Positions 2,140 to 33,974 of a stretch of DNA of 64,000 nucleotides are shown piece after piece. The stretch spans positions 1 through 64,000 of the forward strand of contig CAMAXI010000005.1 in NCBI GenBank assembly GCA_945862165.1, in the 5' to 3' direction. Below the pieces are notes generated by a model that had not been told where the DNA came from, searched no databases, and saw nothing but the letters and a program-made list of their open reading frames with translations. This stretch comes from Chryseobacterium gleum (GTDB taxonomy: Bacteria > Bacteroidota > Bacteroidia > Flavobacteriales_D > Crocinitomicaceae). A program made the position numbers and the translations under genes. Positions within the stretch are counted from its first letter, which is position 1. Every line of letters begins with the position of its first letter.

Positions 2140-3892
2140 ACTAATAACATCGATCCTTGTTTTACTATTAACAGTTAGCAGTTTCGTTTATGGTCAAAAA
2201 CCAAACATTCAACTTTCTGTGAATGTAAAACCGATTGAAGTAGGTCAAATGGTTGCATTTACGGTGAAGTCCAATGTAAATGGGAATATTTCGATTAATC
2301 TTCCCGCAACGTTTACAGAGGCGGGTGTCATGAATGGCATGGAACAAACCATGGATGGCAATGGAAACATGTTGATTTCTATTTCGTATACGCAACAAGG
2401 AGTTTTCACAAAACCTGGTAAATATACAATCACAGCAAGTGTGAAAGACAAGTCGAAAACCTATAAATCCAACGATTTGGCGATTTTAGTTCGTAAAAAA
2501 GGAGATGCAAAATCCAAAAAAAATTATGAGCAATCGGATGAGGATATTTCCAATTCCAACCTAAAAGAAGCAGTTTTCGGAATTATTGAAAAATCGAAAC
2601 GTAAATTGTATGAAGGAGAACCACTTCTTTTAGAAGCTAAAATATTCTCAAAAATTAACGTTACAAATATTATTCAATACCAACCATTTACAATTAAAGG
2701 CACTGTGGAAACCTTTGATATCGAGAAAACAGATAATGTTTCGATTAACCGAGAGAATTATAAAGGAAATACCTTTTTAACGTTTTCCTATGGCAAACAA
2801 TTAGTATTTCCTGCTACATCTGGTAAATACATTATCAAACCGTTTTCGATGGTCTTGCGCTATAATAATGGTGGATTTTTTGATCGGGATTTACAGTTTG
2901 AATCAAACGCTACCTTTGTAGATGTACTTCCCTTGCCAAAAGGCGCTCCGAAAGATTTTAATGGCGGTGTGGGTAAATTTAGCATTTCTACTAACTTATC
3001 TAAGAAAACAGCGAAAGTAGGCGATATTTTAACATATACTATCAAAGTAACAGGAAAAGGAAATATGCATGCTATTTCTAAACCAAAAATGAACTTACCT
3101 CCAAACTTAACCCTATATGGAGATCCAGAAATTAAAGAAGACATCGATTACACAGATGAAGGAGCAGAAGGCGAGAAAACGTATAAATTCTTTATCAAAG
3201 TAGTGGGTGGTGGAAAGGTGGAAATGAATCCTTTTTCCTTGAGTTACTTTGACCCATCTATTAAAAAATATGAGACACTAAAAGAAAAAACTATCTCCCT
3301 TGATTTAGAAGGAGAAATTGTAGCTTCAAAAGTAGATGTTACAGATTCTATTAGTGTACAAGGAGGCGAAGAAGTTTTAGCTGTTCCAGTTTCAGAAGAA
3401 AAACTAGCAGCAAAAGAATCGGTGCCACATTCTACTATTTGGATAGCACTCTTAGGAGTTTTGGTTTTGGTTTTGGGTGCGGTAATTTTCTTTTTATTGC
3501 ACAAACGTAAAAATGAAGTTGCAGTTAGTACGAATGTTGTTTCAGATGAACCAACGCTGTCGGGTGTTACCGAAGTGATTCCAGATTCAAATTTTATAAT
3601 TGCAGAAGCTCAACAACTCGCAAATCAAGGAAATTACAAAGCTGCTTACGGTGTGATTTCAAAATCTATCATAAAGAAAATGCACCAGAAATTAGGAGAT
3701 ACTTCAGAAAATATCTCTAAAGATAAATTAACCGAACGAATGAAATTAGATGGTATTTCTACATCCATTATCGAAGATTATTTTTGGGTGATTCGTTCCT
3801 GTCAAGAAGCAGAATATGCAATTTGGGATACCCATGAAAATTGGGAGGAGGTAGTAGCGAAAACAAAAAACATACTAGATTATTTAAAATAA
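2117..3892 (+). CDS. batD: BatD, oxygen-tolerance protein
   Basis: 591 residues: signal peptide (residues ~8-26, cleaved near VYGQ), tandem beta-sandwich domains to about residue 430, a membrane segment at ~441-462 (IWIALLGVLVLVLGAVIFF) and a cytoplasmic helical C-terminus of ~120 residues. This matches the BatD family. It follows batC with a 23-base overlap, giving the order batA-batB-batC-batD. A second ATG two codons downstream (2123) is an equally good start. Its 3' end overlaps the convergent RAYT gene by 13 bases. It probably presents a periplasmic surface to the VWA proteins BatA and BatB; that role is inference. Confidence 0.88.
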   Translation: MKMGKIGKLITSILVLLLTVSSFVYGQKPNIQLSVNVKPIEVGQMVAFTVKSNVNGNISINLPATFTEAGVMNGMEQTMDGNGNMLISISYTQQGVFTKPGKYTITASVKDKSKTYKSNDLAILVRKKGDAKSKKNYEQSDEDISNSNLKEAVFGIIEKSKRKLYEGEPLLLEAKIFSKINVTNIIQYQPFTIKGTVETFDIEKTDNVSINRENYKGNTFLTFSYGKQLVFPATSGKYIIKPFSMVLRYNNGGFFDRDLQFESNATFVDVLPLPKGAPKDFNGGVGKFSISTNLSKKTAKVGDILTYTIKVTGKGNMHAISKPKMNLPPNLTLYGDPEIKEDIDYTDEGAEGEKTYKFFIKVVGGGKVEMNPFSLSYFDPSIKKYETLKEKTISLDLEGEIVASKVDVTDSISVQGGEEVLAVPVSEEKLAAKESVPHSTIWIALLGVLVLVLGAVIFFLLHKRKNEVAVSTNVVSDEPTLSGVTEVIPDSNFIIAEAQQLANQGNYKAAYGVISKSIIKKMHQKLGDTSENISKDKLTERMKLDGISTSIIEDYFWVIRSCQEAEYAIWDTHENWEEVVAKTKNILDYLK

Positions 3893-4548
3893 AATCGATC
3901 TTTATCCCAGTTTACAACATTGTTTTTTATATAATTTGTAATGTTGTCGTGAGATTCTTCATTGCGTATTTTATTTTCATAAAATAGTTTTTGCCATTCA
4001 AATTCAAAACCTAAACGTCTTGTATGTTTTGTCACAGCAGATTTATAGGAGCCGACGATGGATGAAATAGAATTTTTTCCAATGTTTTGAAATCGTTTTT
4101 GCCCGATCGTTTTTCTATTATTTGTATCCCATGGGACATTATTTATATTTTGTTTGTATTCATTGTTTTGGGTATGATTCTGTAGGGATAGGGCATGCCC
4201 TATCCCTACAGAATCATCATTCCCTATAAAATTCCCCATCCCAACAATCCCATCATCCATATAATTATCATCCATCCATCCACCATTTAGTGTAATTATA
4301 CCATGAATATGATTCGGCATTACCACAAATGATTCTAATAGTACATTTTTGGCGTGATTTTTAATTTCGAACCAAAAAACATCTGCGAGAACACCAATCG
4401 GGGATAAATGCATTTTATTGTTTTGTATTTCCCCAAAATAATTTTTTTTCGCACAAATGGTTATGAAATAGGAGGAATCCCAACGATAATCCCAATTTTG
4501 TAATCGTATAGATTCATTTCTAAATTTGTTTTTATAGTAGGTAGCCAT
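3880..4548 (-). CDS. REP-associated tyrosine transposase (RAYT, Y1/IS200-like)
   Basis: 222 residues. The N-terminal half has the Y1 transposase core: a first strand (YFITICAKK) and the HUH metal-binding motif in VVMPNHIHGII. The C-terminal part has the helix that should carry the catalytic tyrosine (SIVGSYKSAVTKHTR). RAYTs are single-copy housekeeping relatives of IS200 transposases that act on REP palindromes. Between HUH and the tyrosine helix is a low-complexity insert (about residues 90-140) rich in G, D, M and N, part of which is encoded by a perfect 44-bp palindrome (4174-4217). The gene overlaps the end of batD. There is no partner orfB and no terminal repeats of a standard IS element, so it is called RAYT rather than an IS. 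Confidence 0.85.
   Translation of the reverse strand: MATYYKNKFRNESIRLQNWDYRWDSSYFITICAKKNYFGEIQNNKMHLSPIGVLADVFWFEIKNHAKNVLLESFVVMPNHIHGIITLNGGWMDDNYMDDGIVGMGNFIGNDDSVGIGHALSLQNHTQNNEYKQNINNVPWDTNNRKTIGQKRFQNIGKNSISSIVGSYKSAVTKHTRRLGFEFEWQKLFYENKIRNEESHDNITNYIKNNVVNWDKDRFYFK
4174..4217. repeat. Perfect 44-bp REP-like palindrome inside the RAYT gene
   Basis: Both arms are exactly complementary over 22 bases with no spacer, centred on GGGCATGCCC (4191-4200). The arm core GTAGGGATAGGGCATGC recurs with one change at 32385-32401. The palindrome is translated as part of the RAYT (around DSVGIGHALSLQN) and keeps the frame. A perfect palindrome of this length will not arise by chance and is the expected kind of target for a Y1 transposase of this family. 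Confidence 0.85.
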
Positions 4549-4632
4549 AGTTTTTCTTACTGAATTTAAGAAAATATATGATTTATTACAATTGAATTTA
4601 ATCTATTTTAACGTATTAATTCCAATAAAATT

Positions 4633-4640
4633 TACCTTTG
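4633..4640 (+). promoter_or_regulatory. Probable kbl promoter -7 box
   Basis: TACCTTTG matches the Bacteroidota -7 consensus TAnnTTTG and lies 34 bases before the kbl ATG. No TTG is found at the usual 17-20-base spacing upstream, so only the -7 half is supported. Confidence 0.5.
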
Positions 4641-4674
4641 CACCCTAAATTAGAATCAAATTAAAATCAAACAT

Positions 4675-5865
4675 ATGTACGGTAAAATGAAAGATTTTTT
4701 AGCGGAGGAGCTAAAAACAATTGAAGAAGGTGGAATCTTTAAGAAAGAACGTATCATTACCTCTCCTCAAGGAGCGCGTGTTACAGTTTCTTCTGGAGAT
4801 GAGGTAGTAATTATGTGTGCAAATAATTACTTAGGATTATCCTCCCATCCTGCGGTGATTCAAGGTGCAAAAGATGCATTGGATTCTCATGGTTATGGAA
4901 TGTCTTCAGTTCGATTCATTTGTGGGACACAAGATATTCACAAGACATTAGAAAAGAAGATTGCTGATTTTTACGGTACAGAAGATACCATTTTGTATGC
5001 TGCTGCATTTGATGCGAATGGAGGTGTTTTTGAACCATTATTTGGAGAGGAAGATGCAATTATTTCGGATGAATTAAATCACGCTTCGATTATTGATGGT
5101 GTTCGTTTATGTAAAGCGAAAAGATATCGTTACAAGCATTCCGACATGGCAGATTTAGAAACACAATTGATTGCTGCACAAGATCAACGTTTCCGTATTA
5201 TTGTTACAGATGGCGTATTCTCCATGGATGGTGATATTGCTAAAATGGATCAAATTTGTGATTTAGCAGACAAATACAATGCCTTGGTAATGACTGATGA
5301 GTGTCACTCTGCTGGTTTTATCGGTAAAACTGGTCGTGGTGTTCCTGAATATTTCAATGTTATGGACCGTGTAGACATTATTACTGGTACTTTAGGAAAA
5401 GCATTAGGTGGTGCAATGGGTGGTTATACAACAGGTAAAAAAGAAATTATCGAAATGTTACGTCAACGTTCTCGTCCTTATTTGTTCTCTAACTCCTTAT
5501 CTCCTGCAATTGTTGGTGCATCGATAAAAGTATTTGAAATCTTAAGTTCTACTACTGAATTACGCGACAAATTAGAATCAAACACGAAATATTTTAAAGA
5601 TAAAATCGTTGAAGCAGGATTTGATATTAAACCTGGAGATTCGCCAATCATTCCAATCATGTTATACGACGCTGCTCTTTCGCAAAAATTTGCGGATTTA
5701 TTATTGAAAGAAGGCGTTTATGCAATTGGATTCTTCTATCCAGTAGTTGCAAAAGGAGCTGCGCGTATTCGTACACAAATTTCGGCTGCGCATTCCATCG
5801 AAGACTTAGATAAAGCGATTGCAGCTTTTATTAAAGTTGGAAAAGAATTAGGGGTTATCAAATAG
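4675..5865 (+). CDS. kbl: Glycine C-acetyltransferase (2-amino-3-ketobutyrate CoA ligase)
   Basis: 396 residues, the normal length for this PLP-dependent alpha-oxoamine synthase. It converts 2-amino-3-oxobutyrate plus CoA to glycine and acetyl-CoA, the second step of threonine breakdown after threonine dehydrogenase. The PLP lysine is K242 in the TGTLGKALGG motif; the substrate/cofactor motifs CANNYLGL, HASIIDG and DECHSAGF are intact. Kbl is favoured over BioF or serine palmitoyltransferase by the N-terminal start and the SSVRFICGTQ motif. No threonine dehydrogenase gene is adjacent. A -7 promoter box lies upstream and a strong terminator follows, so it is probably transcribed alone. Confidence 0.93.
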   Translation: MYGKMKDFLAEELKTIEEGGIFKKERIITSPQGARVTVSSGDEVVIMCANNYLGLSSHPAVIQGAKDALDSHGYGMSSVRFICGTQDIHKTLEKKIADFYGTEDTILYAAAFDANGGVFEPLFGEEDAIISDELNHASIIDGVRLCKAKRYRYKHSDMADLETQLIAAQDQRFRIIVTDGVFSMDGDIAKMDQICDLADKYNALVMTDECHSAGFIGKTGRGVPEYFNVMDRVDIITGTLGKALGGAMGGYTTGKKEIIEMLRQRSRPYLFSNSLSPAIVGASIKVFEILSSTTELRDKLESNTKYFKDKIVEAGFDIKPGDSPIIPIMLYDAALSQKFADLLLKEGVYAIGFFYPVVAKGAARIRTQISAAHSIEDLDKAIAAFIKVGKELGVIK

Positions 5866-31304: not shown

Positions 31305-32354
31305 ATGAAAGCGCTATTAAAAACAACTCGTCAAAATAAAGGATTAAAAATCCGTGAACTTGCTCATTTAATGGGTGTTGACCAGGCTATTGTCAGTAAA
31401 ATAGAAAGTGGAGTACGTCAGGCTACGAAAGAGCAAATCTTAAAATTAGCATCGATCTTAGAAATTCCAGAAGAAATCTTGCTTCCTCTTTGGATTAAAG
31501 AGCGTTTAATGAATGAACTACAATACGAACCATACGCAGCGCAAGCAATTAATATGGTTCAAGAAGAATTAGGAAATTATATTACAAAGCAAGTACCTTC
31601 ACTTTCACAATCCTTACAAGAAAAATTAAATCACATTGATTCTTTAAAGGCGCAATTAGACACTTTTCGTCAATACGATAGCTACCGCATTGCACAAGCT
31701 TTAGAGTTGGAATATACCTTTGAAAGTAACCGTATCGAAGGAAACACACTTACTTTACGTGAAACTGATTTGGTAATCAATGAAGGGTTGACCGTTTCTG
31801 GGAAAAGTATGCGTGAACATTTGGAGGCGATTAATCATCAGGAAGCCATTTTGTATGTCAAAGAATTGGTGCAAAAGAAAACCAAAATTAACGAACGTGA
31901 AGTGTTGGTGATGCATAACCTAATCTTACGCGGGATTATGCCGGAATATGCGGGTAAATACAGAAATATACAAGTCATGATCAAAGGGAGCGCACATATG
32001 CCTCCACAACCTTTTTTGGTTGCGAAGCAAATGGAAGAATTATACCTTTGGTATGTTACAAATTACAAAACATATCACCCGGTGTTGTTGGCTGCAGAAA
32101 TGCATGAACGTTTGGTAACGATTCACCCTTTTGTAGATGGTAATGGGCGCACATCACGTTTACTAATGAATTTGATTTTATTAAGTAATGGATACGTAAT
32201 CGCAAATATTAAAGGGGATTACGAAACACGTATGCAATATTATACAACTTTAGAACAAGCACAGACTACGGATTCTAAAGAAGAATTTCATCATTTTATT
32301 GCGGATGTAGAAATTGAATGTTTGCAGAAGTATTTGAAGATATTGGGAGCGTAA
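31305..32354 (+). CDS. Fic family protein with N-terminal HTH (XRE) domain
   Basis: 349 residues. Residues 1-62 form an XRE-type helix-turn-helix (IRELAHLMGVDQAIVSKIESG). A linker helix follows, then a Fic domain with the full active-site motif HPFVDGNGR at 274-282. Fic enzymes transfer AMP from ATP to target proteins. An inhibitory (S/T)xxxE(G/N) motif, S141 to E145-G146 (SNRIEGN), lies N-terminal to the Fic core, making this a class II self-inhibited Fic protein. The HTH-Fic fusion and the operator-like repeats overlapping the promoter suggest autoregulation. Target unknown. Confidence 0.9.
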   Translation: MKALLKTTRQNKGLKIRELAHLMGVDQAIVSKIESGVRQATKEQILKLASILEIPEEILLPLWIKERLMNELQYEPYAAQAINMVQEELGNYITKQVPSLSQSLQEKLNHIDSLKAQLDTFRQYDSYRIAQALELEYTFESNRIEGNTLTLRETDLVINEGLTVSGKSMREHLEAINHQEAILYVKELVQKKTKINEREVLVMHNLILRGIMPEYAGKYRNIQVMIKGSAHMPPQPFLVAKQMEELYLWYVTNYKTYHPVLLAAEMHERLVTIHPFVDGNGRTSRLLMNLILLSNGYVIANIKGDYETRMQYYTTLEQAQTTDSKEEFHHFIADVEIECLQKYLKILGA

Positions 32355-32377: not shown

Positions 32378-32419
32378 ATTTATTGTAGGTATAGGGCATG
32401 CACTATACCTACAATAAAT
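32378..32419. repeat. 42-bp REP-like palindrome related to the one in the RAYT gene
   Basis: The arms are complementary over 21 positions with a single mismatch (32395/32402). The core GTAGGTATAGGGCATGC differs from the RAYT palindrome by one base, and the opposite arm carries the matching change, so pairing is kept. It lies between the convergent fic and hemD genes, 24 bases after the fic stop, the usual position of REP elements. It may also serve as a transcription barrier. Confidence 0.75.
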
Positions 32420-32429
32420 GCGATACATT

Positions 32430-33974
32430 TTATACTTCAATTTTTATTTCAAACGAAATCACCTTTGTTTCTCCAGCTTTCAAACGTTGTATTCCTTCTT
32501 TTTGTGTAAAATCTTGCTTCGTATTTATAGAATCAGAAATTCCCAGCCAAGGTTCGATACATACGAAAGGAGCATTTGGTTTAGCCCAAAGTCCAAGGTA
32601 GTCGAATTCAGAGGTATCCATTTTTAATGCTACAGAATGATTTTTCGATTTCAAAGCAATCACCTTTGACTTCAAGTTTTTGAAGATAAGCGCATCTTTT
32701 GCAAATATTTCTGAATTAAGCGGAAGTGTTTTAGTTTCTTTTAAATAGGAAATCGATTCATTTTCAATGAGTCCTTCCTTACTTACTAGCCACGTTTTGT
32801 CGGTTTCAGGGACTTCAAATTCGATATAATAATCTTCGTAGCTTTCGTCTTCAAAGAATGGACAATTGAATCCTGGGTGTCCTCCAAGGGAGAAGTACAT
32901 CGGGTTTTGCGTATCGTGATTGATAATGCTATGTTCTACTTTTACCCCATCTTCTTGCAAGATATATCGAATAATAAATTCATAGTTAAACGGATAATTC
33001 TTCAAAGATTCTTCCGTGTAAATAGAACGAAATTCAATGCAATTTTCCCCAACGATTTTGCTTTCTAAAGTTGCATTATTTCGTATAAATCCATGTTTGG
33101 GGACAGAATAAGTATTTCCTTCGAACAAAAACTGTCCGTCTTTCAAACATCCAATAATAGGAAATAACACTGGTGCATGACTACCCCAAATGGCAGGATT
33201 TGCTTGCCACATAAACTCCACATTTTTTTCTTTGGAGAATAAACTGCATAATTCTGCACCTATTTTGGTGACAGAAATTTTGAAGGAGGAGTTTTGGATG
33301 GTGAGCATGGTATTCTTTAATTTTAGTTTATTCACTATTTCAGATTCATTTGCGTGCAATAAAGTATAAGTGCAGGTAATACCATTTTCTAGTAAACACT
33401 GTTTCGTGGTTTCTCCCCAGGCGATTACATGGGTTGTATTAGGGATCTCATTTTCTTTCAAATACCCTTCTACGTTTGAGGGACTCGTAAATGCTATATA
33501 ATCAAATTCTTGTTCTATTTTTCGTGCATGAATATGAGTTTCGTATACGATACAACATTCTATTTTAGATGGGTTTAGGTGTTTTAAGATTGTTTTTTTA
33601 CTTTCTTTTACCAATAAGATAGTACATGTTTTTTCTCCTAACCAATGTGCGAATTTTTTGGAAATGGTTTCCGGCTGACCTGCATTTTCTCCAACAAAAT
33701 CAACGTGTATTCCTTTTGAATTTAGATGAGTTTTTGTGCTTTCTCCGATACATGCTACAGTAGTATTTTCTGAAATTTTAGTTTGTTTAAGAAAATAATC
33801 TACGGCTCGTTTACTACTAAAGAAAAGCACTTCGGATGTTGGAAATTTTTTAAGTTCAATCGGGGAAAACGACAAAAAAGAATGGTATACAATTTCAATA
33901 TTCTGAGATATACAGTAGTCGTATAATGCTCCTTTATCGTCTTTAGATTTTGTAATTAAGATTGAACGAATCAC
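32430..33974 (-). CDS. hemD: Uroporphyrinogen-III synthase fused to aldose 1-epimerase-like domain
   Basis: 514 residues with two domains. Residues 1 to ~220 are HemD, which closes hydroxymethylbilane to uroporphyrinogen III (ILITKSKDD, VLFFSSKRAVDYFLK, FDYIAFTSPSNVEGYL). Residues ~223-514 form a galactose-mutarotase/LacX-like domain beginning MLTIQNSSFKISVTKIGAEL, with the catalytic-type motifs KHGFIRN and SLGGHPGFNCP. No stop codon separates them; an in-frame ATG at 33308 could start the second domain alone. The first domain overlaps hemC by 4 bases, so it is the third gene of hemA-hemC-hemD. I know of no established HemD-epimerase fusion. A sequencing indel is possible. Confidence 0.85.
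   Translation of the reverse strand: MIRSILITKSKDDKGALYDYCISQNIEIVYHSFLSFSPIELKKFPTSEVLFFSSKRAVDYFLKQTKISENTTVACIGESTKTHLNSKGIHVDFVGENAGQPETISKKFAHWLGEKTCTILLVKESKKTILKHLNPSKIECCIVYETHIHARKIEQEFDYIAFTSPSNVEGYLKENEIPNTTHVIAWGETTKQCLLENGITCTYTLLHANESEIVNKLKLKNTMLTIQNSSFKISVTKIGAELCSLFSKEKNVEFMWQANPAIWGSHAPVLFPIIGCLKDGQFLFEGNTYSVPKHGFIRNNATLESKIVGENCIEFRSIYTEESLKNYPFNYEFIIRYILQEDGVKVEHSIINHDTQNPMYFSLGGHPGFNCPFFEDESYEDYYIEFEVPETDKTWLVSKEGLIENESISYLKETKTLPLNSEIFAKDALIFKNLKSKVIALKSKNHSVALKMDTSEFDYLGLWAKPNAPFVCIEPWLGISDSINTKQDFTQKEGIQRLKAGETKVISFEIKIEV

Follow-up and report, generated by a model that had tools for sequence, protein, structure and literature searches.

The 64-kb window (the whole stretch of DNA analysed here, 64,000 nucleotides) encodes a REP-associated tyrosine transposase (RAYT)-like protein whose gene carries a REP in its own reading frame, and many dispersed copies of the same REP family sit within 5–17 bp of further perfect palindrome that differs in sequence between sites. 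With somewhat better than even confidence we read this system as an in-frame REP in a subclass-2.4-like RAYT with a dispersed family, around which the outer palindromic arms would arise by fold-back copying of one flank. The part for which we found no earlier description is the outer arms that differ per site, the embedded REP itself being already known.

A RAYT-like gene with a REP in its linker

The minus-strand ORF at 3880–4548 encodes a predicted Y1/HUH protein of 222 aa that matches NCBIfam NF047646 (REP-associated tyrosine transposase) at E 3.5e-10 and 40 bits, short of the curated cut-off of 80. A Pfam search gave no match at E 0.001, and E. coli TnpArep, at E 0.15, was the only PDB sequence matched up to E 1. 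Two motifs of TnpAY1 subclass 2.4 are present, NH[IFV]H as N79-H80-I81-H82 (4303–4314 on the minus strand, located by translation and alignment with coordinates by arithmetic) and WQ as W185-Q186, while the Y motif reads YIKNNV against the consensus YIxNNP, keeping the tyrosine and NN and lacking the proline; the second RAYT of the same genome has YIINNP. The Tyr helix is present, and alignment to other RAYTs and to E. coli TnpArep places the putative catalytic tyrosine at residue 206 (3931–3933, minus strand, again by arithmetic). We read the protein as a RAYT resembling TnpAY1 subclass 2.4. The gene is single-copy in its own genome, with next relatives 40% and 35% identical over comparable length, and has a syntenic orthologue in the same-genus genome G010 (97% amino acid identity, same gene context) which keeps the palindrome described below; next to the palindrome, in-frame indels of 18 and 51 nt distinguish the two genes. 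Over 222 codons the orthologues are separated by 12 synonymous and 6 nonsynonymous changes (dN/dS 0.11), indicating that the gene is maintained under purifying selection.

The original prediction that a perfect 44-bp palindrome lies within the RAYT frame without breaking it was borne out: positions 4174–4217 pair as 22 + 22 and are in frame within the 222-codon ORF, in the linker between the HUH and Tyr motifs. No other perfect even palindrome in the window has arms reaching 9 bp, and the longest palindrome arm in 100 order-1 Markov sequences of window length was 12. Its predicted 42-bp relative at 32378–32419 is likewise present between convergent genes (the plus-strand ORF ends at 32354 and the stop of the minus-strand ORF lies at 32430), with 20 of 21 positions paired and the one unpaired position near the centre, and the cores differ as had been stated, a G-to-T change being mirrored by C-to-A in the opposite arm. 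The repeated unit is not the whole palindrome but a 28-bp core with GTAG at both ends, located at 4182–4209 in the embedded copy and at 32385–32412 in the partner (13 of 14 pairs). The embedded core, GTAG...CTAC, pairs at 14 of 14 positions and has the stem ends of a double-foot GTAG REP (a 5' GT[AG]G matched by its complement at the other end). The outer 8 bp of the embedded copy (4174–4181 and 4210–4217; 7 bp in the G010 orthologue) and the outer 7 bp of the partner (32378–32384 and 32413–32419) are locus-specific arms. The 17-base core by which the original prediction proposed to trace the family, searched at up to two mismatches in the 2.89-Mb genome, gave 13 forward and 8 reverse matches (21 in total, at 13 places) against none for the reversed pattern, and the family is thus dispersed in the same genome, as double-foot GTAG REPs are.

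The RAYT interpretation made beforehand stands with regard to the RAYT-like gene, the match of its palindrome to a dispersed REP family and the palindrome kept in the G010 homologue, but its view of an embedded, translated REP as new was abandoned because a REP in frame within the RAYT gene is a trait of TnpAY1 subclass 2.4 reported by Quentin et al. 2018 (PMC6006769, where it is entered as 2.4 (4)). As described there, RAYTs of this subclass resemble that of the window in their HuH and WQ motifs and variable linker, and the systems agree in double-foot GTAG REPs, the in-frame REP and Bacteroidetes among the hosts; the window's RAYT departs from them in having YIKNNV for YIxNNP and no flanking REP at 3000–5600, and its REP family in the locus-specific palindromic arms around the cores, of which the sections of PMC6006769 covered here make no mention. 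The GTAG-tagged REPs of Di Nocera et al. 2013 (PMC3733652) are, as presented in that article, short palindromes of which some copies are intragenic, and share these features with the family studied here, which differs in carrying GTAG at both ends, in its few copies and in its site-variable outer arms. Within 3000–5600 of the window no REP flanks the RAYT-like gene, and the embedded copy is the only strong palindrome. The REPtron (Nunvar 2010), a RAYT flanked by two inverted REPs, differs in this respect from the window's RAYT, around which inverted REPs on both gene sides were not found in the same interval.

Embedded palindromes are found in other RAYT-like genes as well: 12 of 24 RAYT-like ORFs, drawn from 33 loci by an HUH filter that missed some palindrome-bearing RAYT loci (e.g. 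L030, L034, L038), contain palindromes of 11 pairs or more. In the window's own genome, the second RAYT (C1:203949) carries GTAGAGACGCAATGCATTGCGTCTCTAC, which is also dispersed, with 38 matches against 3 in the control when its 15-base half is scored at up to two mismatches. The third RAYT (L027, G000:C1:457510-458244) carries GGGGATGTTGCAGTGCAACATCCCC; its linker encodes DVAVQHP twice, the first of these copies forming a 12-pair palindrome with no GTAG at its start.

Locus-specific palindromic arms

All nine places measured in the window's own genome (G000) extend 5–12 bp beyond the core; four other places with two mismatches each lay outside this measurement, one of which (C9:91795) later showed 5 bp. 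Extensions of at least 5 bp were found in 17 of 23 rows in G010 and in 10 of 25 rows of a second family in G000, many of the remaining rows in both cases being degenerate cores. In a pool of 81 distinct units, which includes orthologues and disregards flank similarity, 66 have arms of at least 5 bp (mean 8.0), compared to 2.0% (mean 0.70) when flanks were shuffled among units. Thinning the set of similar flanks and adding later loci left 66 dispersed units, among which a few RAYT-embedded units remained after the filter; 49 of the 66 extend at least 5 bp, and pairing, which is 0.92 at the position adjoining the core, has dropped to background (about 0.3) by position 14. Seven RAYT-embedded units extend by 0, 0, 0, 0, 2, 5 and 8 bp, the last being the window's own copy, and the units read outside the genus have arms of 7–8 bp in G215 and G117 and of 0–3 bp in G168, G160, G343, G218 and G360. 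On the 5' side of GTAG, the first two flank positions are rich in pyrimidines (72–75%).

Among the 39 sites whose arms reach 5 bp or more, to which this comparison was limited, arms at sites with identical core halves are 45% alike over 8 positions versus 41% expected from composition (89 pairs), and those at sites with different cores are 39% alike (652 pairs). Agreement at 7 or 8 of the 8 positions was seen in 6 of the 89 identical-core pairs versus 19 of the 652 different-core pairs. This near-chance likeness at identical-core sites indicates that the arms are largely made or kept at each site, and the idea that they are carried along with the REP was largely rejected on the same figures, with a small shared part possible. 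Sites S15–S17 share a (C)CCA/TGG(G) foot. The arms were also considered as the edge of a long decayed inverted repeat, which was rejected since the flanks outside the perfectly paired part gave no general excess, only 1 of 65 scoring above the 95th percentile of the control; a reading of S1 as a 55-nt inverted copy was withdrawn, its score lying within the control range.

Among the openly licensed papers searched, no title or abstract opening described locus-specific arms around REPs. In quasipalindrome correction, or template switching at hairpins, one arm of an inverted repeat is rewritten from its partner arm. The arms described here are similar in that one arm appears rewritten from the other, and differ in that the rewritten part lies outside the conserved repeat core and recurs at many family members.

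Paired changes at orthologous sites and the origin of the arms

The comparison of orthologous sites covered 17 sites, each in up to four genomes (G000, G010, G008 and G001), along with further G010–G000 pairs; sites S9–S17 had been preselected for arms of at least 5 bp. Counting one comparison per site at fixed positions over 16 orthologous sites, and leaving out S13, the RAYT site, the G008 allele of S27 and the sites with differing REP families (S3, S8, S19, ileS), the first six arm positions hold 14 complementary double changes, no other doubles and 5 singles, where 2.8 doubles are expected if the sides are independent. The core positions of the same sites hold 9 complementary doubles (1.6 expected) and 20 singles. 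This count replaces an earlier one of 55 paired versus 42 single changes (18 sites, all comparisons), which likewise left out the sites with differing REP families and was biased because arms were counted only where both alleles pair.

At two sites a native arm faces its newly made inverted copy. At S11, the right flank in G001 matches that in G000 and G010 (0 mismatches) and in G008 (1 mismatch), and the left flank is new and mirrored, pairing over 8 positions beyond a single unpaired base at the foot. At S14, the two flanks of G008 are unlike each other; its left flank recurs in G010 with a 6-bp mirror on the right side, and its right flank recurs in G000 with an 11-bp mirror on the left side, the G000 core being slightly different. 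The G008 allele could be a recombinant within the REP. From these two sites, on which the polarity of arm copying rests and which were compared with no outgroup, we infer fold-back synthesis as the cause of the arms. At many dispersed copies one flank would thereby have been rewritten as an inverted copy of the other, lengthening the hairpin. More specifically, the 3' foot (CTAC-3') of an extruded single-stranded hairpin may bend back and prime synthesis along the neighbouring flank X, which would yield X-GTAG...CTAC-X', with later mutations copied from arm to arm. Synthesis from the 3' foot of the hairpin would be a simple single cause of mirrored, site-specific flanks. The explanation is weakened because arms are weak or absent in many units outside the genus and in most RAYT-embedded copies, and our confidence in it is slightly lowered by the arm-likeness data, which leave room for a small shared part; the core positions, at which singles outnumber doubles (20 vs 9), count against it. 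When arms were sought in relatives with empty sites, neither arm was recognisable at most sites.

The mode of REP spread is stated in PMC8266576 to be unresolved, and E. coli TnpAREP is reported there to cleave 5' or 3' of REPs. A part for the RAYT in arm formation is our guess from this reported cleavage: nicking by the RAYT at the foot might supply the primer end. In a more far-reaching version, which we put forward tentatively and consider doubtful, the arms are a footprint of RAYT action in which the foot is opened, the 3' end primes synthesis on the target flank and religation yields X-REP-X', old REPs being the preferred targets. If so, an inverted duplication of the target flank would mark Y1-type REP insertion or exchange; and should the arms be inverted copies of the target flank, insertion or exchange would leave a recognisable scar by which the process can be polarised.

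Paired changes in the arms would also be produced if the hairpin were transcribed and its RNA stem useful, for example in mRNA end protection or attenuation, in which case compensatory substitutions would keep the arms paired and no templated copying would be involved. The location of the window's second copy between convergent genes fits this explanation; however, arms of 12–17 bp are wholly different between sites with an identical core, the multi-base mirrored arms at S11 and S14 occur in one relative and not in another and do not readily follow from stepwise compensation, and the 14 complementary doubles stand against only 5 singles at the six arm positions of the 16 sites. We therefore regard selection on a transcribed hairpin as unlikely to account for the arms.

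Distribution of the REP family and of the RAYT

The two same-genus genomes with this RAYT, G000 and G010, have 21 and 41 core matches, and the other 11 genomes of the genus, several of them incomplete, have 0–14. This distribution, with the perfect palindrome of the embedded core and its retention in G010, agrees with the model of the original prediction, namely a self-contained REP-mobilising unit in which the RAYT would use the embedded copy as donor for seeding the genome. Against that model, copies of the family occur in relatives lacking a close RAYT relative, including G008 (14 core matches, yet a single RAYT match at E 1e-10, of 37% identity; genome 90% complete) and G004 (9 core matches; genome incomplete), and the RAYT gene itself is single-copy and syntenic. 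We consider a donor role of the embedded copy very unlikely.

Among named genome contigs the perfect core was found in 30 stretches, mostly metagenome assemblies of Flavobacteriia, Flavobacteriales and Chryseobacterium, and including one Saprospiraceae, one Chitinophaga and one Anaerolineae contig. A contig titled Chryseobacterium gleum (L186, 6581) has a perfect core with arms of 7 bp within an open frame of 733 codons that lacks the RAYT motif. The exact pattern of the second family is present in 8 of 392 genomes of the phylum, the window's own included. In G168, from another family of the phylum, copies of the second REP lie close together in repeated arrays, share flanks and have arms of 0–1 bp (L222, L224, L226, L227).

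Sites shared by different REPs

A REP in G010 lies in an ORF fragment whose best match is NCBIfam TIGR00392, isoleucine--tRNA ligase (E 1.9e-51, 175 bits, below the whole-protein cut-off as the match is a fragment). Of 16 genomes searched for this ileS site (L094 2119; L228–L240), 13 were aligned, and G004, G006 and G009 gave no match. Six genomes of the genus (G000, G001, G005, G008, G003 and G010) carry in-frame palindromes of four types there, and seven genomes have none (G011, G012 and five from other genera). The left arm of the G003 allele resembles native coding sequence, and a second half-REP follows the right arm; a 12-mer test for which arm is native at the site was weak. Different REP families also occupy one site in different genomes at S3, S8 and S19, which together with ileS suggests that new REPs are drawn to occupied sites or that certain sites are targeted repeatedly.

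Such sharing of sites, along with terminator-like arms in some copies (e.g. AAAAACCCA/TGGGTTTTT at S17), would be expected if REPs inserted into the tips of pre-existing hairpins such as terminators, the arms being old stems, but we judge this the least probable of the explanations considered, given that no unit-less allele held both arms within 1 mismatch except in relatives with a degenerate copy of the unit (S3, S28, S24), that S11 and S14 show one arm only, and that the 5' flank has the pyrimidine bias given above.

Half-REPs lie beside an arm in L234, L122 and L124. A half-REP of at least 9 nt beside an arm was found in 6 of 61 units vs 2.9% of controls, and one of at least 12 nt in 3 of 61 vs 0.1%, a modest excess over controls on which half-REPs were rejected as a general signature. 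At L182 (6880–6990) a ladder of three 22-bp steps, each consisting of an arm and a half REP, runs into a full REP. The half-REPs at L234, L122 and L124 and this ladder suggest, the excess being modest, that the hairpins do arise and disturb replication.
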